This document shows, in pieces, positions 5,063 to 16,565 of a DNA stretch of 39,537 nucleotides. Source of the stretch: a virus. The position numbers and the translations under genes were made by a program. The notes below the pieces were generated by a model that was given only the letters and a program-made list of their open reading frames with translations, was not told the origin of the DNA and made no database searches. Position 1 is the first letter of the stretch, and each line of letters starts with the position of its first letter. The stretch lies in the IMG/VR virus record IMGVR_UViG_3300047673_000078, positions 1-39,537 of that record, one strand, 5' to 3'.

Positions 5063-5689
5063 ATGGTCGCAGCAGCAGTAGGAGCGGTCGCGGTAGCAGG
5101 CGTGGCAAGCTCTGCCATGGCTGCCAATCAGGCGGGGAAGGCCAATGCATCGCAGCAACAGCAGGCGCAAAGCCAACTGGAGCTTGCGCAGCGTCAGTAC
5201 GACACGATGCAGTCGCAGATCTCCCCATACCTTGATGCGGGGAATTCCGGGCTAACAGGGTATCAGGATTTACTTGGCGCGAACGGTGCGGACGCACAGG
5301 GCAACGCCATCAACGATATCAAGACCGGCGCCCAATACCAGGGCGACATGAAAACGGCAAACGAGGCCATACTCGCCAATCAGTCGGCGACCGGTGGGCT
5401 GCGTGGCTCCAACACGAGCAACATCCTCGGCAACACGTCGATTTCAACGCTCAACGGTCTCATTACGCAGAGGCTGGCCGGCTACGGGCAGTTGATGAAT
5501 AACGGTCTGAATTCGATCAGTGCGTCTCAGGCTGCGAGCAACGTATTCCAGAACAACTCGAACCAGGCGACGCAGAATTCCGCGAACGCCAGCTCGCAAT
5601 ACGATGCGGCGCTGTCCAATTCGTTCAAGTCTGGACTTGGCTCCATCACTCAAGGCTTTAACGCATTCGCTGGCGGGGGGATGACCTGA
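5063..5689 (+). CDS. Ejection (internal virion) protein, P22 gp7-like
   Basis: 208 aa against 229 for P22 gp7. It begins with a hydrophobic Ala/Val/Gly segment (residues 2-25, VAAAVGAVAVAGVASSAMAA), followed by a Gln-rich helix (QQQQAQSQLELAQRQYDTMQSQ) and DNA-transfer-protein features such as PYLDAGNSGLTGYQDLLG and SATGGLRGSNT. The family consists of proteins packaged in the capsid and ejected into the cell envelope ahead of the DNA. It is the first of three consecutive ejection genes, with the order gp7-gp20-gp16 conserved. The stop overlaps the next start by one base. Confidence 0.8.
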   Translation: MVAAAVGAVAVAGVASSAMAANQAGKANASQQQQAQSQLELAQRQYDTMQSQISPYLDAGNSGLTGYQDLLGANGADAQGNAINDIKTGAQYQGDMKTANEAILANQSATGGLRGSNTSNILGNTSISTLNGLITQRLAGYGQLMNNGLNSISASQAASNVFQNNSNQATQNSANASSQYDAALSNSFKSGLGSITQGFNAFAGGGMT

Positions 5690-7038
5690 TGTACGACTTC
5701 TCAAACATGGGCTCTGGCATCGATACCGAAATGGGGCAGAACGCCCTCATCGGTCAGCAGATCGGCCGGAACCTGGCGACAGCTAAAGATAGTGTGGCGG
5801 CTACCAACGCGCAGAACCAGGCCGTTACGTCGAATGCAAACCTTCAGATCGGCAACAATCAGCGCCAACAAGCGTTCCAGATGGAATCGGCCGCGCTCTC
5901 GGGCAACCCGAACGCGCAGGCTTCGGACTGGACAGCGCTCGCGCAGAAGTACCCGGAGTTCGCCAACCAGGTCAACGCAAACACCAACCAGCAGCAAGTG
6001 AACTGGGTCAACATCCGGCAGCGTATGTCGTCAGATGCTGTGGCTACGGTCGCAGGTATGCAGGCTCGCTTGCAGGCCAATGATGTGCCTGGTGCGCTCG
6101 ACTTGCTGGAGCAACGCGCGGTGCGTCAGGAGAACGCAGGCGATACGGCCGGCGCTGCCCAGACTCGCTCGTTCGAGAAGCTCATCAATACGAACCCTGA
6201 AGGCGCCAAGCAGCTTGCGTCGAGCATCCTGAACGCAGGCAGCGCGAACTCCGCTGGAGAACTGTATGCGAATCAGGCGAGCCAAGCTGGAGCGGCAGTT
6301 GCGCAGAACACAGTCCCGGCGAAGATCGCAGCGGCAAACGCTGGTGCTTCTCTGGCTGGAACGCAGGCCTCCTATGCGCCGGCGCAAGCACAAGCGGGAA
6401 TCAATGCAACTCAGGCAGGAACGGCGCTGACGCAGGCCAATACCGGGCTCGTCAATCAGCAGATCACCGCGCCTCCTGCTGCCATCGCCGCAGCTCAGCC
6501 AGAATACACGGCAGGCCAGACGAATCAGCAGCTTTCCGAGCAGTCTGGCGAGCTTGCAAATGCGTTCGGCCAGATCGAGAACGGCGGCACGAGCGGTCTG
6601 CTCGGCGCGACGTGGGATCAGGCTGGGCGGCGCTGGACTGGCGATACATCCAAGCTTCAGCAGTTGCGGCAGGAAGCAGCAAGTCTGGTTACGCAGGCTG
6701 AGACCGCAAGCATGGTCAACGGCAACTTCACGGATGCATCGACCGCGCGTGCGGTGCAGAACGTGCCGCAGATCACGGACAGCCCGAAAGCGTGGGCTAC
6801 CTATCTACAGGCGCGTCAGAAGTTCCTCGCGTCGAAAGCGGCATGGTCTAACGCGCGCGGGGATTGGGCGCGCAGCAATAACGGATCGTTCGGCCCTGCA
6901 TATCGGGACATGACGGTGCAGACGCCGAACGGCGCAGCGTTCGTCAAGCAGGGCGATAGCTTCACGCAGTTCAGCAAGAAGGTGGCGCCGAGCTATTACA
7001 CGACGCCGGGTGCAAACTCCTTCGACCCGACGAAATGA
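5689..7038 (+). CDS. Ejection (internal virion) protein, P22 gp20-like
   Basis: 449 aa (P22 gp20 is 471). Composition is dominated by Ala, Gln, Asn, Ser and Gly, with long helical stretches full of AGxAxAQ patterns (residues about 160-270), as in gp20-type DNA-transfer proteins. No catalytic motif. Position as the second of three ejection genes supports the assignment more than direct similarity does. It overlaps the following gene by four bases (ATGA), so stoichiometry may be set by coupled translation. Confidence 0.72.
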   Translation: MYDFSNMGSGIDTEMGQNALIGQQIGRNLATAKDSVAATNAQNQAVTSNANLQIGNNQRQQAFQMESAALSGNPNAQASDWTALAQKYPEFANQVNANTNQQQVNWVNIRQRMSSDAVATVAGMQARLQANDVPGALDLLEQRAVRQENAGDTAGAAQTRSFEKLINTNPEGAKQLASSILNAGSANSAGELYANQASQAGAAVAQNTVPAKIAAANAGASLAGTQASYAPAQAQAGINATQAGTALTQANTGLVNQQITAPPAAIAAAQPEYTAGQTNQQLSEQSGELANAFGQIENGGTSGLLGATWDQAGRRWTGDTSKLQQLRQEAASLVTQAETASMVNGNFTDASTARAVQNVPQITDSPKAWATYLQARQKFLASKAAWSNARGDWARSNNGSFGPAYRDMTVQTPNGAAFVKQGDSFTQFSKKVAPSYYTTPGANSFDPTK

Positions 7039-10000
7039 CGAATCCGACCTTTCCTGTATCGTATCGTGACCCAGTCTATGCGGCGGCCGATCAGGCTGCC
7101 TCGGAGGCGGCCGGCATTCCGCCCGGGCTGCTTACGAGCATCCGCGTGGCCGGCGAGAAGTCGAACGCCAATCAGGTGAGCAGTGCGGGCGCCGCCACGC
7201 CGTACCAGGTGACGCCAACCACGCGCGCGGCGATCATCAAAAAGTACAACATTGACCCATATGCTTCCCCGGAAGCCGCGGCGCTTGGCGCTGCCTATCT
7301 GTTGAAGGAAGGCATGCAGCGGACTGGCAGCGCAGCGGGCGCTGTGACGCAATACATCGGCGGCACGGACCCGGCGAACTGGGGCGGACAGACGCGCGCA
7401 TACACGAATCGCGTGATGTCGCACTTCACGAAGGGCGGCGGACAGGATGCGCCGCAAGCCTCGCCGATACCTGCAGCGCCATTGCCTAGCCCCGCATCGT
7501 ATGGGCTCGATCCGTCCGTCGTGGGGATGGACAACGCGCCCCAACAGATGCCGACGCAGACTGTCGCGCCGAGTACGCCCGCGCTTGCTCCGGGTGCGGG
7601 TGTCACGGCTCAGATCGTGGCGGATTACAATTCCGGACGGCTCTCTCCGCAAGACATGGACGCGGTAGATGCGCGCGTGAAGGCGGGAAAGATCGCGGTC
7701 GATCCGTCGCAACTCATGCGACCGCAGGCGGCGCCCGCCGATAGCGCTAATGCTGGCGCGGCTCAGAGCCAAAGTCAGCCGGGTTCGGTGCCCGCGGCGC
7801 CCGCCAAAACGATCGGCCCGCAGACGCTCGCCGCGCTTCAGGCTGGAACGCTTGCGCCGGATCAACTCGCTATCGTCAAGCAGGGATTGGCAGACGGATC
7901 GCTGGTGATGCCTCAATCGCCGCAGCAACCGCAAGGCAGCGATACGGGTTCATCCATGGGTCTGCTGGCGGGCTCTACGGGCTTGCCGGCCAGTGCCATG
8001 CCGACCGCTCCGCAGAATCCCACGACAGCCGCGCAGAATGGCTCGACGCTCTCTGATATTGCGGAGCGTGGCGTTGGTGGGATCGCAGGCAGTCTGCTGG
8101 ACATCGCCGCCGCCGGTGGCCGGATGGTGGGAGCCAACGACTTCGCCAATCAGGCAGTCGATGCGCGCAACCAGATCAATGAGAAGATCGCGCGCGACAC
8201 GAGCGGTAGTGTTGCCGGTAAGGTAGCTGGAGCCGTTGGATCCGCGGTGCCGTATGTTGCAGCCGGTGGCGCTTCGTTGCCGACTGCCGTTGCGGGTGGA
8301 GCAGTCGCAGGCGCGGTCCCGTCGATCGCCGATAACAAATCCGGCGCTGAGATCGCGCGCGATGCTGCTGTTGGTGCGGGCGCAGGTGCTGCGGGGTTCG
8401 GCGTAGGCAAAGCGTTAGGAGCGGGGCTATCGGCATTGGCTGAGAATCCGACCATTGCGAAGGGCATCGCGAAGGCGCAGGGTCTGTTTGGCAAGTCGCC
8501 GTCAGAGGCGACGAAGATTTCCGCTGCAGGAAACGCTGCGGATGCGCACGTCGCAGCGGACATCGCGCACGCTTCGGGAAACACGCCTGACCAGCTCGCC
8601 ACGAAGCTTGAGCAGGCGCCCACGCCTCAAACTCCTGGCTACACACCGACTGCGGCTGAACTGGCGAACGACGCGAACGTGACGACCGTGCAGAAGGCCA
8701 GCACGAACGCCAATCCTTCAGTGTTTGCCAATGCGAGCGCTGAGAATGACGCGGCGATCTCCAATGAGCTTGCGCAGCGCGGTACGCCTAACAATCCGGG
8801 TGCGCCAGCTAATCCGCAAGCAGTCGATCAGGCAGCAGAGGCCGCGGCACAGCGCAGCGATGCACTGGCGGCCCAAGGTCAGGCAGAAGTAAAGCCGATC
8901 GCGCCGGATGTAGCGCAGAAGCTCCAGACGCCGCAGTTCGATGCGCCGGTCAAGCTCGCGCAGCGCATGGCGCGCGATGAGGGATCGACGGTGTTCGATG
9001 ACTTGCAGAAGTCTCGGCAGGCTGACGCAGGCAATACGCTGAAGCAGATCATCGGCACGCCCGAGCAGTTGGACAGCATGAAGGCGGCCCGCAGCGCGCA
9101 GGCTACCGACGACCTGAAGCAGATCTTCGAGAACGCGAAGCCCGCCAATCCAGCGCCAGTGCTGAATACGATCGACAGCATTCTCGCTGGCCCGAGCGGC
9201 AAGCGTCCTGCAGTCGCGCAGTCGCTCAACAGCCTGCGGAACATCATCGACAACGACGGCGCACCGATCACCGACGCACAGACGCTGTATGACTCGGTGC
9301 GCAAGGGCATCGACGATATGGTTGATCCGAAGATGGCGACGGCCAACCCTGCGGGTGTTCAGGCATCGCGGGAACTGTTGCGCGTCAAGGAAGTGCTAGA
9401 CAAACAGCTTGAAAAGTCCGCGCCTGGCTTTCAAGGGTATCTAGACAAGTTCAAGCAGGCATCCGAGCCGATCGACGCAATGCAGTCGGTCCAGAGTCGC
9501 CTATATAGCGCGGTCGATCCTGTAAGCGGCGAAGTGGATCCGGGCAAGTTGGTGAACGCCATCAACAGCGTCAAGACCGAGCAGATGAAGCCTGGCGCAC
9601 GTGCTGCCGACAAGGTGCCGCAAGACACACTCGATGCGCTGACCGAACTCGCGCGGCATCTGCAGAACAAGAACGATCTGACCGGCCTTCCTGCGCAGGG
9701 ACAGGAGTACATTCGACGCGCGCTCGCATCAAGCGACAAGCATGCGGCGGCTCAGGCAGAGTTTCGTAAAGTGCTGGATAGCCAGTCTCCGGCGTATAAG
9801 GAATTGCACGGCGCGCACGCACAGAACGTCTCTGCGATCCAGTCGCAGCAGACGAGCCAGTCGGCGCTTGCTGCCGCACAGGAAGCGATCCAAAACGCGG
9901 ATTCGCCGTCCGGTCTGCGCAGCATCGAGAAGATGCTCCCGGACATGGAAGCGGCAGACCGGGCAAAGGCTATCGCATTGCGGCAGCAACGCGCGCGGGA

Positions 10001-10565
10001 ATTGGCACTCGGCGAGGCTCAGGAGCGCAACCTGAACGCGGCCGGCAAGACTGAATTTAACCGCGGCACGTTCAAGACGATCTCCGACAAGTACACGCCT
10101 TATATGTCAGCGTCAGACGCACGGCAGTTTGCCAACGTCTCGGACGACCTGTTGCGGCAGACCGCGAGCTATGCCAAGACAGGCAAGATTGCCGGCAGCG
10201 ACACCGCGCAGAATCAGAGTGCGGTGAGAAGGTTCGGGAGCAATCTCGGTTCTGCCCTGAAGGATTCCGCGGTGCAGGGGCTGATTACGGGCGGCGTCGG
10301 ATCTGCGTTCGGCCCGGTTGGTGCAGTGGGCGGCATGGCGGCTGGCGCGATCACTGGCGCTCTCACTCGAACAGTCACGCAAAAAGTATCGTCAATCACG
10401 ACTGAAAACGCGGCGAAACTGCTGTCTAACGGTAAACTTCTGGCATCCGCGCTGCGCAACTATGAATCTCTGGCCGCGCGACAGCTTTTCGTTCAGCAGC
10501 TTGCGGCAAAAGTCGGGTTCGTAGGTGGCGCCGCAGCCGCAAATCAGTTTAACAGTCGTCGTTAG
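7035..10565 (+). CDS. Ejection protein, gp16-like, with N-terminal lytic transglycosylase domain
   Basis: 1176 aa, nearly twice the 609 aa of P22 gp16. Residues about 13-130 form an SLT-type lysozyme domain: the catalytic Glu is E41 in AGEKSNANQVSSAGA, followed by the PYQVTP strand and the AALGAAYLLKEG and VTQYIGG helices. This domain should open peptidoglycan during DNA entry. A Pro/Ala/Gln-rich linker follows, then a Gly/Ala-rich hydrophobic region (about 385-480), a long helical region, and a second Gly/Ala hydrophobic segment near the C-terminus (QGLITGGVGSAFGPVGAVGG). The hydrophobic segments fit insertion into the host inner membrane. It is the last ejection gene and the largest protein in the window. 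Confidence 0.85.
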   Translation: MTNPTFPVSYRDPVYAAADQAASEAAGIPPGLLTSIRVAGEKSNANQVSSAGAATPYQVTPTTRAAIIKKYNIDPYASPEAAALGAAYLLKEGMQRTGSAAGAVTQYIGGTDPANWGGQTRAYTNRVMSHFTKGGGQDAPQASPIPAAPLPSPASYGLDPSVVGMDNAPQQMPTQTVAPSTPALAPGAGVTAQIVADYNSGRLSPQDMDAVDARVKAGKIAVDPSQLMRPQAAPADSANAGAAQSQSQPGSVPAAPAKTIGPQTLAALQAGTLAPDQLAIVKQGLADGSLVMPQSPQQPQGSDTGSSMGLLAGSTGLPASAMPTAPQNPTTAAQNGSTLSDIAERGVGGIAGSLLDIAAAGGRMVGANDFANQAVDARNQINEKIARDTSGSVAGKVAGAVGSAVPYVAAGGASLPTAVAGGAVAGAVPSIADNKSGAEIARDAAVGAGAGAAGFGVGKALGAGLSALAENPTIAKGIAKAQGLFGKSPSEATKISAAGNAADAHVAADIAHASGNTPDQLATKLEQAPTPQTPGYTPTAAELANDANVTTVQKASTNANPSVFANASAENDAAISNELAQRGTPNNPGAPANPQAVDQAAEAAAQRSDALAAQGQAEVKPIAPDVAQKLQTPQFDAPVKLAQRMARDEGSTVFDDLQKSRQADAGNTLKQIIGTPEQLDSMKAARSAQATDDLKQIFENAKPANPAPVLNTIDSILAGPSGKRPAVAQSLNSLRNIIDNDGAPITDAQTLYDSVRKGIDDMVDPKMATANPAGVQASRELLRVKEVLDKQLEKSAPGFQGYLDKFKQASEPIDAMQSVQSRLYSAVDPVSGEVDPGKLVNAINSVKTEQMKPGARAADKVPQDTLDALTELARHLQNKNDLTGLPAQGQEYIRRALASSDKHAAAQAEFRKVLDSQSPAYKELHGAHAQNVSAIQSQQTSQSALAAAQEAIQNADSPSGLRSIEKMLPDMEAADRAKAIALRQQRARELALGEAQERNLNAAGKTEFNRGTFKTISDKYTPYMSASDARQFANVSDDLLRQTASYAKTGKIAGSDTAQNQSAVRRFGSNLGSALKDSAVQGLITGGVGSAFGPVGAVGGMAAGAITGALTRTVTQKVSSITTENAAKLLSNGKLLASALRNYESLAARQLFVQQLAAKVGFVGGAAAANQFNSRR

Positions 10566-10573
10566 GACTCCAT

Positions 10574-11032
10574 ATGAGAAAGCCTGCCTTCGCAGTCGAG
10601 CGCTTTCAGGACGTGTATGCGGAACTTCTCCCGCTTTTGCACGAGCACTATGACGAGATCAGCCTGCATAAGCATATGGGCTATGACCTGAAGCCGAATG
10701 TCGCGCTATACCAGGCGATGCAGGACGCCGACCAGCTCATGATGATGATCGGCAGGCTTGAAGGTCGCATCGTTGCCTACTTCGTCGCGTTCGTGCGGCC
10801 GAGCATCCATTACATGGGCTGCATGGAAGCGGCCGGTGACATTTTCTACTGCGCGCCCGACCGCCGCGGCGCAATGATCGGTCTGCAGCTTTTCGAAGCG
10901 GCCGAGCAGGAACTGAAACGGCGAGGCGTGAAATGCTTCATGGCCGGCGAGAAGATTGCGTACCCGGCTGGCCCGCTCTTTGAGCGCCGCGGCTTTGAAC
11001 CTATCGAACGGAAGTGGTGCAAATGGCTATAA
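10574..11032 (+). CDS. GNAT-like acetyltransferase
   Basis: 152 aa. The fold order fits a GNAT N-acetyltransferase: a beta strand RIVAYFVAFVRPS, an acidic strand AAGDIFYCAP, and the acetyl-CoA loop and helix DRRGAMIGLQLFEAAEQELKRRG (about residues 96-118), ending with PLFERRGFEPIERKW, the usual last strand pair. Genes of this type recur beside the portal in podovirus genomes; substrate and role are unknown. It has AGGA ahead of its ATG and overlaps the portal gene by 10 bases. Whether it is catalytically active cannot be told from sequence. Confidence 0.75.
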   Translation: MRKPAFAVERFQDVYAELLPLLHEHYDEISLHKHMGYDLKPNVALYQAMQDADQLMMMIGRLEGRIVAYFVAFVRPSIHYMGCMEAAGDIFYCAPDRRGAMIGLQLFEAAEQELKRRGVKCFMAGEKIAYPAGPLFERRGFEPIERKWCKWL

Positions 11033-13335
11033 CCAAAGAAGAACGCCTGGGGAAGGTCTGGGAGCGTGCGACATCGCGGTTTGACCGCGCTTATGGTCCG
11101 CAACAGCAAGTTCGCCTCGCTGCATTGGAAGATCGACGCTTCGCGTATGTAGACGGCGCGCAATGGGAAGGCGGTCTGGGTGAGCAATTCCAGAATCGGC
11201 CTCGCTTTGTCGTCAACAAGGTGCAGAAGGCCGTGCGTCGGATCGCATCGGAATATCGGGCTAACGCCATGACGGTGAATTTCCGTTCGGGCGACGATGA
11301 TTCGCGAAACGACGATATGAACGCGTTGCGGACGGTGTATCGCTCCGACGAGCAATACAGCAAGGCGCAGGATTCATACGTTTCCGCTTTCGACGAGGCG
11401 GCATGTGGCGGCATGGGTGCTTGGCGCCTGACGAATGACTATGATGTGCGCGTGGAGGTCGATTACGACGATGACGCACCGCAACGCATTCTTTTCGAGC
11501 CGATCAGCGACGCCGATATTAGCGTATTTTTTGACCCGAACAGCAAGAAGCTTGACAAGTCTGATGCCAAATGGTGCGTCGTGCTTAACCCGATCAGTTG
11601 GGATACCTACACGTCGGAATATCTGGATAGCGCTGAAGTCGAGATCCATGAACGGCCAACCAGTTTCAAGATGGTTCGATCGCTAAAGCAGTTCGACTGG
11701 TTCACGAACGATTCCGTCTACATCGGTGAATACTACGAGGTCGAGCAAAAGACCGAAGAGTTCTCTGTTTGGCGCGAGCCGAATTCGGGTGTCGAGCAGA
11801 AAATATATGCGGGCATGGACGCGGAAGAGCGCGAGCGGGCTGCCGAGCAGGCGGAAAAATATAGGTCTATCGGGTACATCAAAGTCAGATCCGGCAAAAG
11901 AAACAGGAAGCGTGTGCGCAAATACTTCCTCGACGGGTCAGGCATCCTGAAGGACTGCGGCTACATCGCCGGAACTGAGATACCGATTGTAGTTGTGCTG
12001 GGCATCCGCCAGATCATTGACGGCATCGAGCGATTCCAGGGATCTGTGCGCCTCGCTAAGGATTCACAGCGTCTGTACAACATGCAGATCAGCACGCTCG
12101 GTGACATCACCGCATTCACGCCGCGCGAGAAGCCTATTTTCACGCCAGAGCAGATTGCGGGTCATGAGTTGACGTGGGCTAACGACCTAGTTGCGAATAA
12201 CCCTTATCTGCTTATCAACCCGATCACTGGCGCTGACGGGTCATCTACGGTTTCAGGCCCAGTTGGCTATATCAAGCAGCCGGACGTGCCGCCAGCATTG
12301 GCTGGGCTGATTCAGATCACGGCAGCCGACATGATGGACGTGACGGGTGGAGATCTGGCCGCCGGAGAAGTGGTCGCTAATACGTCGGATGCATTGGTGA
12401 GCCGTGTCCAGGCGCATCAAGACATGCAGGTATATATCTTCATTGACGGCATGAAACGCGCGATGCTGCGATGTGGTGAAATCTACCTGTCGATGGCTTG
12501 CGACATATACACCGAAGAAAATCGGAAGTTCACCGCGATCAACGAAGATGACAAAAACAATAGCCAAGAATCAGTAGTGATCAATGTGCCTTCGCTAGAC
12601 GGTGAAGGAAGACCGATCATCACCAAGTCGTTTAACCGCGGAATGGATGTGTTCGTTGATGTTGGCCCTGCATTCAACAGCCGGAAGGATGCGACCGTGA
12701 ACGCGCTGGCTAAGATAATCCCAGGCGTGACAGATCAGCAGCTCCAGCAATTGATGCTGATGACAATGGTCAAGAACCTCGACGGGGAGGGTATGGATGA
12801 CCTTGCCCAGTTTGCTCGCAAGCAACTCGTGAAGGCCGGCGTAGTCAAGCCGACGCAGGAGGAAGAGGACGAACTGGCGAAAGAGCAGGAAGCAGCAGCC
12901 AACGCACCGCCCGACGCCGCAACGGTTGCATTGCTGGCGCAAGCGCGCGAATCGGATGCGAATTCCACGAAGTCTCAGGCCGCGGCCGTTCAGTCGCTAT
13001 CTGCTGCCGAACTCAACCAGGCCAAGGCGGCGCAAGCTGTATCGCAGACCAACGCCTCGCAGCTTGCGACGATCATCAACATGTTGCAAGGCATGCAGGG
13101 CAACATACAGGGCACTGCCGAACAGATCAGCGCAAGCCAGCCGCAGCATCCGTCCGACGCCAAGGTAGACGCAGCATTGGCGAGCGGGAACGCCGCACCG
13201 TCGCCAGGCATCAATCCTTTGCACGGCGCCCAGGTCGTCCCCGACCCGACAGCGCAGGATCTGACGGCCGGTAACGTGGCTGCGCCGCCGCAAGCGCCTA
13301 TCCATGCGTCTAACCGGCCGGCAGTGGGCAGATGA
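11023..13335 (+). CDS. Portal protein, P22-like
   Basis: 770 aa (P22 portal, 725 aa). I chose ATG at 11023 (MAITKEERLGKVWERATSRF) with GGAAG about 8 bases upstream, rather than the upstream in-frame GTGs at 11014 and 11017. Recognisable elements are the N-terminal DRAYGPQQQVRLAALEDRRF region, the VNKVQKAVRRIASEYR helix, the acidic SGDDDSRNDD segment and the Ala/Gln-rich C-terminal coiled coil, which corresponds to the P22 barrel. The dodecameric portal is the DNA gate at the capsid vertex and docks TerL and gp4. The gene overlaps TerL by ATGA, as expected for partners in packaging. Confidence 0.9.
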   Translation: MAITKEERLGKVWERATSRFDRAYGPQQQVRLAALEDRRFAYVDGAQWEGGLGEQFQNRPRFVVNKVQKAVRRIASEYRANAMTVNFRSGDDDSRNDDMNALRTVYRSDEQYSKAQDSYVSAFDEAACGGMGAWRLTNDYDVRVEVDYDDDAPQRILFEPISDADISVFFDPNSKKLDKSDAKWCVVLNPISWDTYTSEYLDSAEVEIHERPTSFKMVRSLKQFDWFTNDSVYIGEYYEVEQKTEEFSVWREPNSGVEQKIYAGMDAEERERAAEQAEKYRSIGYIKVRSGKRNRKRVRKYFLDGSGILKDCGYIAGTEIPIVVVLGIRQIIDGIERFQGSVRLAKDSQRLYNMQISTLGDITAFTPREKPIFTPEQIAGHELTWANDLVANNPYLLINPITGADGSSTVSGPVGYIKQPDVPPALAGLIQITAADMMDVTGGDLAAGEVVANTSDALVSRVQAHQDMQVYIFIDGMKRAMLRCGEIYLSMACDIYTEENRKFTAINEDDKNNSQESVVINVPSLDGEGRPIITKSFNRGMDVFVDVGPAFNSRKDATVNALAKIIPGVTDQQLQQLMLMTMVKNLDGEGMDDLAQFARKQLVKAGVVKPTQEEEDELAKEQEAAANAPPDAATVALLAQARESDANSTKSQAAAVQSLSAAELNQAKAAQAVSQTNASQLATIINMLQGMQGNIQGTAEQISASQPQHPSDAKVDAALASGNAAPSPGINPLHGAQVVPDPTAQDLTAGNVAAPPQAPIHASNRPAVGR

Positions 13336-14615
13336 GCGACGTATCGCTTCCTGACTGGGCTGAATGCCTGCTGACACAGGGGCCGCGGTACACCATTCTG
13401 CACGGTGGCCGCGGTTCGGCAAAATCGATGTCAGTTGGCACCGCACTTCCTATCCGAGCTGCTGCCGAGCCGTTACGCGTATTGTGCTGTCGAGAGATTC
13501 AGCAGTCCATTCAGGAATCCGTGAAGTCAATGCTTGAGTCGCGGATGCGTGCGATGGACCTTGCTGGATCGTTCTACGACATTCAGAAGTCAGAGATCAA
13601 TGGCGCGAACGGCAGCAAGTTTATCTTTCGTGGCCTGAGCGACATCACGGCTGACTCCATCAAGTCGCTAGACGACATTGATATCGTGTGGGTAGAAGAG
13701 GCGCAGGTGCTGTCTCAGAGATCGCTTGATCTGCTGCTTCCGACAATCCGTAAGGAAACGTCAGAGATCTGGATGACGCTTAATCCCGAACTCGACACTG
13801 ATCCGGTCTATACGACCTTTATTGAGAAGCCGCCCGCTAACGCGCGCGTGATTCAGGTCAACTGGAATCGGAACCCGTTCTGGAACAGCGCGCTCGAAGC
13901 GGAACGTCTGCGCTCACAGGCAGACGACCCAGAGCGCTATGACCACATATGGGAAGGCGTGCCGCTCTCGGCGGCATCCGGCGCGATCTATCGGGTTGAA
14001 ATGCACGCGCTGTCGGTAAACAACCGTATTAGGCCGATTGCGGAAGATCCGGCTCTGACGACCCATGCGGTGTTTGACCTTGGTGTAGCCGATCTCACGT
14101 CTATCACCATTGCGCAGGCAGACATTAGCGGATTGCGCGTGCTGGCGTTCCACGAGGATCACGGCCTGGCACTCAAGGACTACAGCGACTGGCTACGACA
14201 GAATGGATGGGGACATTGCACGATCTGGCTGCCGCACGACGGCCGCGCGCGCTCTCTGCATACCGGCATGTCGTCGGAATCGCTTATGAAGTCGTATGGG
14301 TGGAACGTGCAGATTGTGCCTTCACTGCCTGTCGAGACAGGCATCCAGAACGCGCGAGCGGCACTGAAAAACGCGTTTGTCTCTGACGATAATGGCTGTG
14401 GTGTGCTGTTAGAGCATCTGCGTCGCTACACACGCAATAAGGCAGGGCACCCGCAGCACGACGAACATTCACACGCTGCTGACAGCTTCCGCTACACGGC
14501 GATCGCAATGGGGCATTTCAAGGCCGCAGCGGAGCGCGTGGCGAAGCAAGCCGACCTCGCCGCGCGCGTGAAGGTTATTCCGACCGTGAACCATTGGGGC
14601 AGTGTAAATCGATGA
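13332..14615 (+). CDS. Terminase large subunit (packaging ATPase/nuclease)
   Basis: 427 aa. Walker A is GGRGSAKS at residues 25-32, Walker B with its catalytic Glu is IVWVEEA at 118-124, and the coupling motif TLNP is at 149-152. The C-terminal RNase H-like nuclease shows its first acidic residues at D249 and D254 (FDLGVADLTS) and the last one in HAADSFRY near residue 385. The architecture is Terminase_3/PBSX-type, used by headful-packaging phages. It pumps DNA through the portal and cuts it. The last 41 bases overlap, on the opposite strand, the end of the hydroxylase gene at 14575. Confidence 0.93.
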   Translation: MSDVSLPDWAECLLTQGPRYTILHGGRGSAKSMSVGTALPIRAAAEPLRVLCCREIQQSIQESVKSMLESRMRAMDLAGSFYDIQKSEINGANGSKFIFRGLSDITADSIKSLDDIDIVWVEEAQVLSQRSLDLLLPTIRKETSEIWMTLNPELDTDPVYTTFIEKPPANARVIQVNWNRNPFWNSALEAERLRSQADDPERYDHIWEGVPLSAASGAIYRVEMHALSVNNRIRPIAEDPALTTHAVFDLGVADLTSITIAQADISGLRVLAFHEDHGLALKDYSDWLRQNGWGHCTIWLPHDGRARSLHTGMSSESLMKSYGWNVQIVPSLPVETGIQNARAALKNAFVSDDNGCGVLLEHLRRYTRNKAGHPQHDEHSHAADSFRYTAIAMGHFKAAAERVAKQADLAARVKVIPTVNHWGSVNR

Positions 14616-15192
14616 CCATGCTGATGCGGTCAACAGACGATTCGTTGCGCACCTCGTGCTCCAGTTCATTGCGGAACCAGAACAGGCGGCCGGTCAGCAT
14701 CTGCAAAGCCTCATCCTTGCTGCCGTCGCTTTCCTCACCGCAGTAAATCACGGCGCCAGGCTGCCCCTGAATCACCAGGTGAAAGCGACGCCAATACCTG
14801 ACGTGTTCCGGCGTATCAGCATGGCGGAAGATCCGGCCGCCCGGGCGAATCCGGTTGATCATCACACGGCCAATGCGAGTCGCCCGCGTGAAGCGCGCCA
14901 GATCAAACACGAAGTCGTGCGCCTGCGTAATCTGGTCCCATGCCGGGCGGCAGATGGATTCATGCTGGTCATAGCCCGGCAGCATATTCTGCTTGTATAG
15001 CTCGATCTGCTCGTCGGTCAGTCCAGTAGCAATCTCCGGGAAGCGGAGCATGATCGTATCGGTATCGCCGAACGGGCCCTGCGGATATTTGCGCAGGAAG
15101 TCGTCAGCCTGCCATCGTGCGGGGTCAATCGACACGGCCAGCGCGAGAGCGGACACGTCCATGCCGTCCTTGATGATGTGGAAATTTCGCAT
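14575..15192 (-). CDS. 2OG-Fe(II) aspartyl/asparaginyl beta-hydroxylase-like protein
   Basis: 205 aa, read against the surrounding late genes. The double-stranded beta-helix signature is complete: H124 and D126 (FRHADTPEH) as the first iron ligands, FHLVIQGQPG with H138, then FWFRNELEHEVRN supplying the distal His (H179), and R189 in DRISMVIDL as the 2-oxoglutarate anchor. This is the order of Asp/Asn hydroxylases that act on proteins. Substrate unknown. It is the third gene of a divergent cassette (RHH, membrane protein, hydroxylase). No strong ribosome site precedes its ATG, which lies just past the stop of the membrane gene, so it may depend on coupled translation. Confidence 0.82.
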   Translation of the reverse strand: MRNFHIIKDGMDVSALALAVSIDPARWQADDFLRKYPQGPFGDTDTIMLRFPEIATGLTDEQIELYKQNMLPGYDQHESICRPAWDQITQAHDFVFDLARFTRATRIGRVMINRIRPGGRIFRHADTPEHVRYWRRFHLVIQGQPGAVIYCGEESDGSKDEALQMLTGRLFWFRNELEHEVRNESSVDRISMVIDLHCPNGSRSE

Positions 15193-15193
15193 G

Positions 15194-15472
15194 TCAGAAA
15201 GGTATTTGAAAAACTACGATAGCCGTCATGAGCGCCGCGACCGCAGTACCCCATCCGAGGACTGTCTTGATGACGCCAAGGCCGTTGCGTCGCACATCGC
15301 TAGCGATCTTGCGCGTTTCACCGATAGCCTCGGCGCCAACCTCGATCAGTGACACATGAGTCAGAAAGAGGATGCGCCCTAGCGCCAAGCTGAAGCACAA
15401 CCCCATCGTGAATGCTGGCGGCATCAGAAAGGCGCTCGCGATGCAAAGCCACACAGAGAAAATCAGCCACAT
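15194..15472 (-). CDS. Small integral membrane protein, 92 aa
   Basis: Two hydrophobic N-terminal segments (residues about 2-20, LIFSVWLCIASAFLMPPAF, and 22-40, MGLCFSLALGRILFLTHVS) and one C-terminal segment (about 73-90, WGTAVAALMTAIVVFQIPF) flank a polar middle with VGAEAIGETRKIASDVRRN. This implies three membrane spans with a helix between. No family recognised. The gene overlaps the RHH gene by 10 bases and ends one base before the hydroxylase start, so the three are co-translated. Superinfection exclusion or a membrane partner of the hydroxylase are possibilities, not conclusions. Confidence 0.65.
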   Translation of the reverse strand: MWLIFSVWLCIASAFLMPPAFTMGLCFSLALGRILFLTHVSLIEVGAEAIGETRKIASDVRRNGLGVIKTVLGWGTAVAALMTAIVVFQIPF

Positions 15473-15624
15473 TCTTTCTTGCTCCGGTCGTCCTCTTCAA
15501 TCTGCTTTTGTAGCATCGAGCGGATGATCTCAGCCACTGAATAATCGCGTTCCTTTGCGATTTCTTCCAGTCGCTTTAGCATCGGCTCCGGCAGGTGTGT
15601 TTGAAAGCGTTTCATCGTGTGCAT
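15463..15624 (-). CDS. Ribbon-helix-helix (CopG/Arc-like) protein
   Basis: 53 aa from ATG at 15624 (a second ATG at 15615 is possible). The layout is classic RHH: a short strand KRFQTHLPEP, helix one MLKRLEEIAKERD, turn, and helix two SVAEIIRSMLQKQIEE. Such proteins bind DNA as dimers and usually repress their own operon. It leads a three-gene antisense cassette. The frame extends further upstream but that part is the promoter region and is not RHH-like. Palindromes that could be its operator lie in the gap toward 15705. Confidence 0.72.
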   Translation of the reverse strand: MHTMKRFQTHLPEPMLKRLEEIAKERDYSVAEIIRSMLQKQIEEDDRSKKECG

Positions 15625-15704
15625 GATAGACGTATTTCGCACTACCAGGTGAGGGTTTAGCCGTATACTTCTGATGTCGCAAATTTCCACCAAAAGGTGA
15701 GTCC
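15625..15704. promoter_or_regulatory. Divergent regulatory region with two GGTG/CACC palindromes
   Basis: The 80 bases between the divergent RHH and scaffold genes contain CACCAAAAGGTG (15688-15699), and a related CAC-TACCAG-GTG (15640-15651), both followed by AG. The pair looks like an operator for the RHH protein. The first palindrome also overlaps the scaffold ribosome site. A TATACT box at 15664-15669 could be a -10 element reading right; I found no convincing -35. Confidence 0.4.
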
Positions 15705-16565
15705 ATGGAACAGCTAGACGAGACGCAAACGCCGCTTGAAGAGGTAAACCCACCTGCCGCCACCTCGGCTCCTGTGCTGTTTGACGAAGCGGACGACCTT
15801 GAATCCGGCGTTGAAGGCGAGGGCAGCCAGCCGGATAACGAAACTGCAGAAGTAATCCCGCAAGGCGAAGCGCCCGAGCAGAACGAAAGCCGCACTTTCC
15901 GCAAGCTGCGCGAAATCAGCAATGCTGCGCTGAAAGACAAGCGCCGTCTTGAGCGCGAACTGGAAGAGATTCGCGCCAAGCTGCCCAAGCCAGAGCCGAC
16001 CCTTGGCCCGAAGCCGACGCTTGATCAGTTCGACTACGACGAAGCGAAGTACGAAGAAGCGTTCGCCGGTTGGATGGCGCGGAAAGCGGCCGCGGATGAT
16101 GAGGACCGCAAGAAGCTGGATGCGCAGCGTCGCGAACAGGAAGAAGTCGAGAACTTCAAGAAGTCGTACAAGGCGCGCGCCGATTCTTTGGGCGTCGATG
16201 ACTTTCAGGAAGCAGAATCAGAAGTCGGCACCATGCTGAACCAGACGCAAAGCGGCCTCCTGATGCGTGGTGCCGATGATCCGGCCGCGCTCGTCTATGC
16301 ACTGTCCAAGTCGCCCACGAAACTGATCGAACTTTCGCGCATCACCGACCCGGTTAAATTCACCGTCGCCGTTGCCAAACTGGAGATGAACTTGACGTCA
16401 CGCAAACCCAACCGGCCGGCGCCAGAGCCGCGCATTTCCTCCGAACGCAGCGCGACGGGTCATAGCGCATCGTCGTCGCAACTGGAAAAGCTTCGTGACG
16501 AAGCAGCGCGCACCGGCGACTACAGCAAGGTCGTCGCCTACAAGAAGCAAAACGGCCTTAAGTAG
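15705..16565 (+). CDS. Head scaffolding protein
   Basis: 286 aa, very acidic N-terminal third (residues 1-60, poor in order-promoting residues), then long charged helices (LRE...ALKDKRRLERELEEIRAKL, DDEDRKKLDAQRREQEEVENF) and a basic, Ser-rich C-terminus ending AYKKQNGLK. This composition and its place directly before the coat gene fit a scaffold, where the C-terminal basic helices bind coat protein. P22 scaffold is 303 aa. AGGTGAG precedes the ATG. No protease domain is visible, so scaffold is probably released intact as in P22. Confidence 0.82.
   Translation: MEQLDETQTPLEEVNPPAATSAPVLFDEADDLESGVEGEGSQPDNETAEVIPQGEAPEQNESRTFRKLREISNAALKDKRRLERELEEIRAKLPKPEPTLGPKPTLDQFDYDEAKYEEAFAGWMARKAAADDEDRKKLDAQRREQEEVENFKKSYKARADSLGVDDFQEAESEVGTMLNQTQSGLLMRGADDPAALVYALSKSPTKLIELSRITDPVKFTVAVAKLEMNLTSRKPNRPAPEPRISSERSATGHSASSSQLEKLRDEAARTGDYSKVVAYKKQNGLK

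Follow-up and report, generated by a model that had tools for sequence, protein, structure and literature searches.

A conserved phage hydroxylase gene lying antisense between terminase and scaffold, and its acetyltransferase neighbour beside the ejection-protein genes

The PF05118 family, represented by human AspH, L-proline cis-4-hydroxylase and LpxO, is characterized by a double-stranded beta-helix fold, which the phage protein studied here (HYD) has in common with these enzymes. In our phage, the HYD gene follows genes for a ribbon-helix-helix protein (RHH) and a small membrane protein (MEM), and the immI region of P22, with its Arc and Mnt repressors and SieA, offers a parallel, as it also joins an RHH repressor and a membrane protein in the late region of a P22-type phage. 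The likeness is one of description; immI is not known to contain a hydroxylase, and the cassette described here differs by lying between TerL and scaffold. Phage hydroxylases of the HYD kind have already been annotated, as two articles document (PMC12195039, PMC3037559). The Asp/Asn beta-hydroxylase ORF8 of Limnohabitans phage DC33 is a distant homologue of HYD (25% identity) whose annotation goes no further than a possible metabolic role, and the text consulted makes no remark on the GNAT acetyltransferase next to it (PMC12195039); we find this ORF directly upstream of the GNAT gene and in sense orientation, unlike HYD in our phage. Phage GNATs beside internal virion proteins (phrog_1249) are represented in Cobaviruses, where such a GNAT has been proposed as the counterpart of T7 gp13, for which a part in virion morphogenesis is suggested (PMC6775973). 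It resembles the GNAT of our phage in adjoining ejection or internal virion genes; ours belongs to a type that is paired with a hydroxylase, whereas the text consulted of that report mentions none. A search of open-access literature brought up no description of the near-constant HYD-GNAT pair beside ejection genes, nor of its one-time break; the enzyme families themselves are already known. Phage 2OG hydroxylases often appear in lists of metabolic genes that lack an explanation; the pairing places them in a concrete, testable context, together with an acetyltransferase and the ejection proteins.

The window, by which we mean the whole stretch of 39,537 nucleotides analysed, belongs to a P22-like temperate podophage. 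It encodes a P22-type portal and coat, a phage scaffold, a Terminase_3 TerL, an Sf6-type TerS, a gp7-like ejection protein and a lambda-type integrase, and Rfam and tRNA searches of it gave no match. Its close relatives are IMG/VR contigs and prophages of Paraburkholderia, Burkholderia/Caballeronia and Robbsia, and the integrase together with the prophages in Burkholderiales chromosomes marks the lineage as temperate. The three ORFs that a sequence-only reading had placed on the minus strand between TerL and scaffold are indeed found there (Table 1). They are tightly packed, with RHH and MEM overlapping by 10 nt and HYD starting 1 nt after MEM, and at their 3' ends HYD and TerL overlap by 41 nt, stops included. 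RHH, MEM and HYD are real genes and not chance ORFs, since relatives conserve their proteins and dN/dS stays far below 1 (about 0.11 for HYD, 0.17 for RHH and 0.33 for MEM in homologue comparisons, with 0.12 for GNAT); by this measure HYD and GNAT evolve slowly and MEM evolves fast.

Table 1. Genes and candidate control signals of the window discussed in the text
Feature	Position	Strand	Basis or remark
Ejection protein 1, P22 gp7-like	5063..5689	+	PF25688 E 4e-6, just under cut-off
Ejection protein 2 (gp20 position)	5689..7038	+	homologues in HYD-GNAT operons of other phages; no Pfam match
Ejection protein 3, 1176 aa (gp16 position)	7035..10565	+	homologues in HYD-GNAT operons
GNAT acetyltransferase, presumed former operon neighbour of HYD	10574..11032	+	PF00583 E 1e-5; phrog_1249
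TerL, convergent with HYD	13332..14615	+	PF04466 E 5e-30
HYD, PF05118 2OG-Fe(II) hydroxylase, 205 aa	14575..15192	-	core gene of lineage
MEM, small membrane protein, 92 aa	15194..15472	-	homologue alignment, hydropathy
RHH, ribbon-helix-helix (CopG/Arc-like) DNA-binding protein, 50 aa from likelier start	15463..15615	-	PF01402
TATCAT, conserved -10-like hexamer just upstream of RHH	15623..15628	-	gap alignment, 20 loci
TATACT, candidate -10 toward scaffold; also in loci without RHH	15664..15669	+	gap alignment
Scaffolding protein, divergent from cassette	15705..16565	+	phrog_648 E 3e-37

HYD scores 35.7 bits against PF05118 (E 1e-8), above the curated cut-off of 22.6 bits, and has the Fe(II)/2OG ligand set of the family (HxD...H plus Arg) in H124, D126, H179 and R189. 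These four residues, together with R136 and H138, are unvaried in 34 HYD homologues, and N113 is also invariant. We take H124, D126 and H179 to bind the metal and, following the alignment with AspH, R189, R136 and H138 to lie on the co-substrate side; all are kept in the 34 aligned homologues, and the intact active site claimed from the sequence alone is thereby borne out. The AlphaFold model of HYD (pLDDT 89.6, pTM 0.87) finds its closest PDB structures in proline cis-4-hydroxylase, proline 3-hydroxylase, AspH, a nucleoside-antibiotic hydroxylase and PHD2-type enzymes. HYD is thus probably an active Fe(II)/2-oxoglutarate hydroxylase, as far as residues and predicted fold indicate. AspH H679, H725, R735, R688 and H690 correspond to HYD H124, H179, R189, R136 and H138, whereas the facial-triad aspartate D126 of HYD has no equivalent in AspH, and AspH K666 and S668 are replaced by M111 and N113, so that the substrate-site lysine K666 of this EGF-domain hydroxylase is missing from HYD. 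Profile searches also match AspH and the proline hydroxylases by sequence, via the C-terminal half of HYD only; the N-terminal half of this phage protein, with its RxYPQGPF and DQHE motifs, is distinct from AspH, there is no room for the AspH TPR domain, and HYD carries no membrane anchor. In PADLOC, only a generic 2OG model matched.

HYD belongs to the core genes of the lineage, as it is present in antisense orientation in all 34 relatives that span TerL to scaffold and that were chosen by coat protein and not by HYD; the same count led us to reject HYD as an optional cargo gene in the window lineage. When all distinct spanning loci are considered (n=37), antisense HYD occurs in 37, MEM in 34 and RHH in 26; MEM and RHH also diverge quickly. 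The Robbsia-type phages (L025, L026, L030 and L037) lack both RHH and MEM and keep HYD, and an obligate RHH-MEM-HYD trio was rejected on this ground. Looking for the three-gene set elsewhere, as the sequence-only reading had proposed, showed it to be frequent within the lineage and not beyond it: in the outgroup loci examined, neither RHH nor MEM was seen beside HYD. That HYD outlasts both genes, and that neither adjoins it outside the lineage, speaks against a self-contained system of hydroxylase, repressor and membrane partner. Further small genes occur in the same region. One relative (L005:659-1111) has a 150-aa ORF resembling an RHH-HNH fusion in the same slot upstream of RHH-MEM-HYD, and differing small ORFs lie between MEM and HYD in three others (L007:4727-5008, L018:4702-5004, L028:2128-2343); there are hints that the TerL-scaffold gap collects small mobile or early-type genes.

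Outside the lineage, the constant neighbour of HYD is the GNAT by the ejection genes, which the sequence-only reading, taking RHH and MEM for the partners of HYD, had left unconnected. The window GNAT scores 25.8 bits against PF00583, above the cut-off of 20.7, and so has a GNAT domain. In other phages, including Pseudomonas phage PfAn1 and DC33, HYD lies in sense orientation and is followed immediately by GNAT and then, as a rule, by ejection-protein genes. To avoid selection on HYD, a viral collection was scanned with GNAT alone. HYD lies directly upstream in 49/49 loci outside the window lineage among the best 80 of a first scan, and in 52 of the 53 loci with upstream sequence in a second scan with divergent queries, where the sole exception (L399) is the most divergent, both counts being of contigs among top-ranked matches and not of independent species. 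The HYD stop and the GNAT start are mostly -4 to +4 nt apart, as in translational coupling, and ejection-protein genes directly follow GNAT in nearly all HYD-GNAT loci; homologues of ejection protein 1 of the window hold this position in other phages. Ejection protein 3 contains a weak transglycosylase domain (PF01464, E 0.002, below cut-off). Judging by this gene order, HYD and GNAT are very probably functional partners that form a two-enzyme module.

Trees were built from 84 paired HYDs and GNATs. The members of the antisense lineage form one clade in each (SH-aLRT 99 for HYD and 98 for GNAT), and L091, which has a sense HYD-GNAT pair, is the sister of this clade in both. A single clade with the same sister in both trees means by parsimony that the pair was broken once, and that the antisense position of HYD is derived. 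The window GNAT still adjoins the ejection genes (5063-10565), where it stayed, and HYD became an antisense unit between TerL and scaffold. Visible neighbours such as RHH and MEM can mislead once the true partner gene has separated.

More distant GNATs extend this picture. GNATs from Zobellviridae and from MW202796-type phages, which share about 26-35% identity with the query, lie, as a rule, directly before genes for small and large internal proteins, and a profile search detected HYD near them in 0/10 database phages and 0/14 contigs. Because these GNATs adjoin ejection genes without HYD, the GNAT-ejection arrangement is wider and probably older than the pair, and HYD would have joined later. 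It is possible that a GNAT before internal virion genes is a general counterpart of T7 gp13. An hhalign comparison of GNAT against the single T7 gp13 sequence (Phage_T7_Gp13, phrog_308) gave no match, and only the position of the gene agrees. In the very distant podophages without HYD (L321-L330, L332-L345), the place of GNAT directly before internal virion protein genes is conserved, and T7 gp13 itself (T7 gene 13, L331:508-921) resembles a worn-down GNAT by eye, the profile comparison being negative.

What might such a module do? The linkage of HYD and GNAT comes from gene context; activity, substrate and timing are what we infer. HYD would hydroxylate, and GNAT would acetylate, phage proteins during virion assembly, most likely the ejection proteins, which in the case of GNAT are encoded by the adjoining genes, and the modification would precede the entry of these proteins into the head. 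We give this proposal as a whole, covalent modification of phage (most likely ejection) proteins by the two enzymes during assembly, a probability of roughly 0.45. Among the targets suggested from the sequence alone, virion proteins fit the context best, and a block of superinfection has found no positive evidence. Several points count against ejection proteins as substrates. Gene context shows partnership and not substrate, and late-operon neighbours can act on the host; HYD, being antisense in the window lineage, may not be expressed late; and since many phages have ejection proteins without HYD, any modification is not generally required. A gp7 N-terminal signature of HYD-bearing phages was considered and rejected, as Ala/Gly/Val-rich starts also occur without HYD and point to no substrate. 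A wider version, tentative and rather doubtful, makes this a widespread maturation step of podophages: ejection proteins would be modified covalently before packaging by an acetyltransferase and an O2-dependent hydroxylase, and one lineage would have shifted its hydroxylase to separate antisense control. If ejection proteins are indeed modified, a new layer would be added to the assembly of the DNA-injection apparatus in short-tailed phages, and virion quality would become tied to oxygen and 2-oxoglutarate.

The main rival to this assembly-stage modification is that HYD and GNAT modify host proteins late in infection, with proteases, RNA polymerase and ribosomal proteins as examples of possible targets. 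In bacteria, ribosomal proteins are modified by hydroxylases and by GNATs alike, and the HYD fold matches those of protein hydroxylases (AspH, PHD2) and also those of enzymes acting on free proline. The phage GNAT Rac, for its part, has been reported to act on Pseudomonas transcription through host proteins (PMC7552054). However, the module is tightly linked to ejection genes and not to early takeover genes, and the GNAT-ejection synteny is kept even without HYD, which makes host targets unlikely on balance.

A different kind of explanation leaves GNAT aside and takes RHH, MEM and HYD for a unit complete in itself, which would be active in the lysogen and would alter the host surface or block superinfection. 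Its location resembles that of antisense cargo genes in temperate phages, the lineage is temperate, the unit has promoter-like sequence of its own, and MEM is seen solely adjoining HYD (31/31 loci). The persistence of HYD after the loss of both companions, their absence beside HYD in other lineages, its core status (34/34), unlike that of optional cargo, and a PADLOC search without a match beyond a generic 2OG model all argue the other way, and we regard such a unit as improbable. RHH and MEM are better described as companions of HYD that are specific to the lineage, RHH probably as an autoregulator and MEM probably as an accessory membrane protein. RHH scores 31.2 bits against PF01402 (RHH_1; E 2e-7), above the cut-off of 20.5. 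In a type II toxin-antitoxin module a toxin gene would adjoin RHH; the adjoining MEM gave no match to a toxin family. MEM matched no family in Pfam, PHROG and further family searches, and an alignment of 23 homologues shows an invariant D-x-R-R-N-G motif between hydrophobic segments. Its description as a three-span protein holds for the window copy by hydropathy, but not for the family, in which many homologues lack the first span and the core has two. A structure prediction for MEM was poor (pLDDT 66.6, pTM 0.31) and was set aside.

It is also conceivable that the two enzymes form a metabolic pair, in which HYD hydroxylates a free amino acid or another small molecule and GNAT N-acetylates the product. 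Consecutive enzymes are often encoded by adjacent genes, and the best structural match of the HYD model is free L-proline cis-4-hydroxylase (4p7w) in Foldseek and proline 3-hydroxylase (1e5r) in VIA-align. However, protein hydroxylases score almost equally, with differences below 1 Z, so that these near-tied scores do not tell a peptide from a free amino acid as substrate; HYD is also shorter than the matched proline hydroxylases (205 vs 290-292 aa), and a metabolic pair would have no reason to track ejection genes, which leaves this pathway quite improbable. An LpxO-like hydroxylation of lipid A, for which MEM would hold HYD at the inner membrane, is highly improbable: proteins resembling LpxO share the Pfam family of HYD and are present in 2/6 host genomes examined, but the HYD profile scores only about 25 bits on them against more than 300 on phage HYDs, MEM does not accompany HYD outside the lineage, and HYD as an LpxO was itself rejected, having 205 aa and no anchors of its own where LpxO has about 300 aa with terminal anchors. 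As an observation apart from these readings, DC33 (L032, PQ492659.1) is filed under Inoviridae in GenBank despite its 39-kb genome with terminase- and portal-like genes.

Control of the antisense unit would lie in the divergent gap between RHH and scaffold. For RHH, the ATG at 15615 is the likelier start, since the one upstream falls within the conserved TATCAT hexamer, from which a transcript would be leaderless or nearly so. The unit would have its own promoter, the gap itself offering promoter-like sequence; an automatic sigma-70 scan of 14400-16000 returned no full promoter, and its terminator matches fell inside the scaffold gene and were near chance. The operator-like palindromes for RHH that had been read into this gap find no good support in the comparison across relatives. 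The clearest of them, CACC..GGTG at 15688-15699, overlaps the scaffold Shine-Dalgarno sequence and is retained, whole or in part, in relatives without RHH, and no palindrome specific to RHH-bearing loci was recognized in the gap alignment. As it holds the scaffold ribosome-binding site and persists without RHH, this palindrome more likely concerns scaffold translation than RHH binding. The sequence can be drawn as a hairpin, CCACC-AAAA-GGTGA (15687-15701), whose 3' arm contains the scaffold Shine-Dalgarno sequence and whose arms are kept across most of the lineage with a variable loop; such a hairpin could regulate translation of the scaffold.
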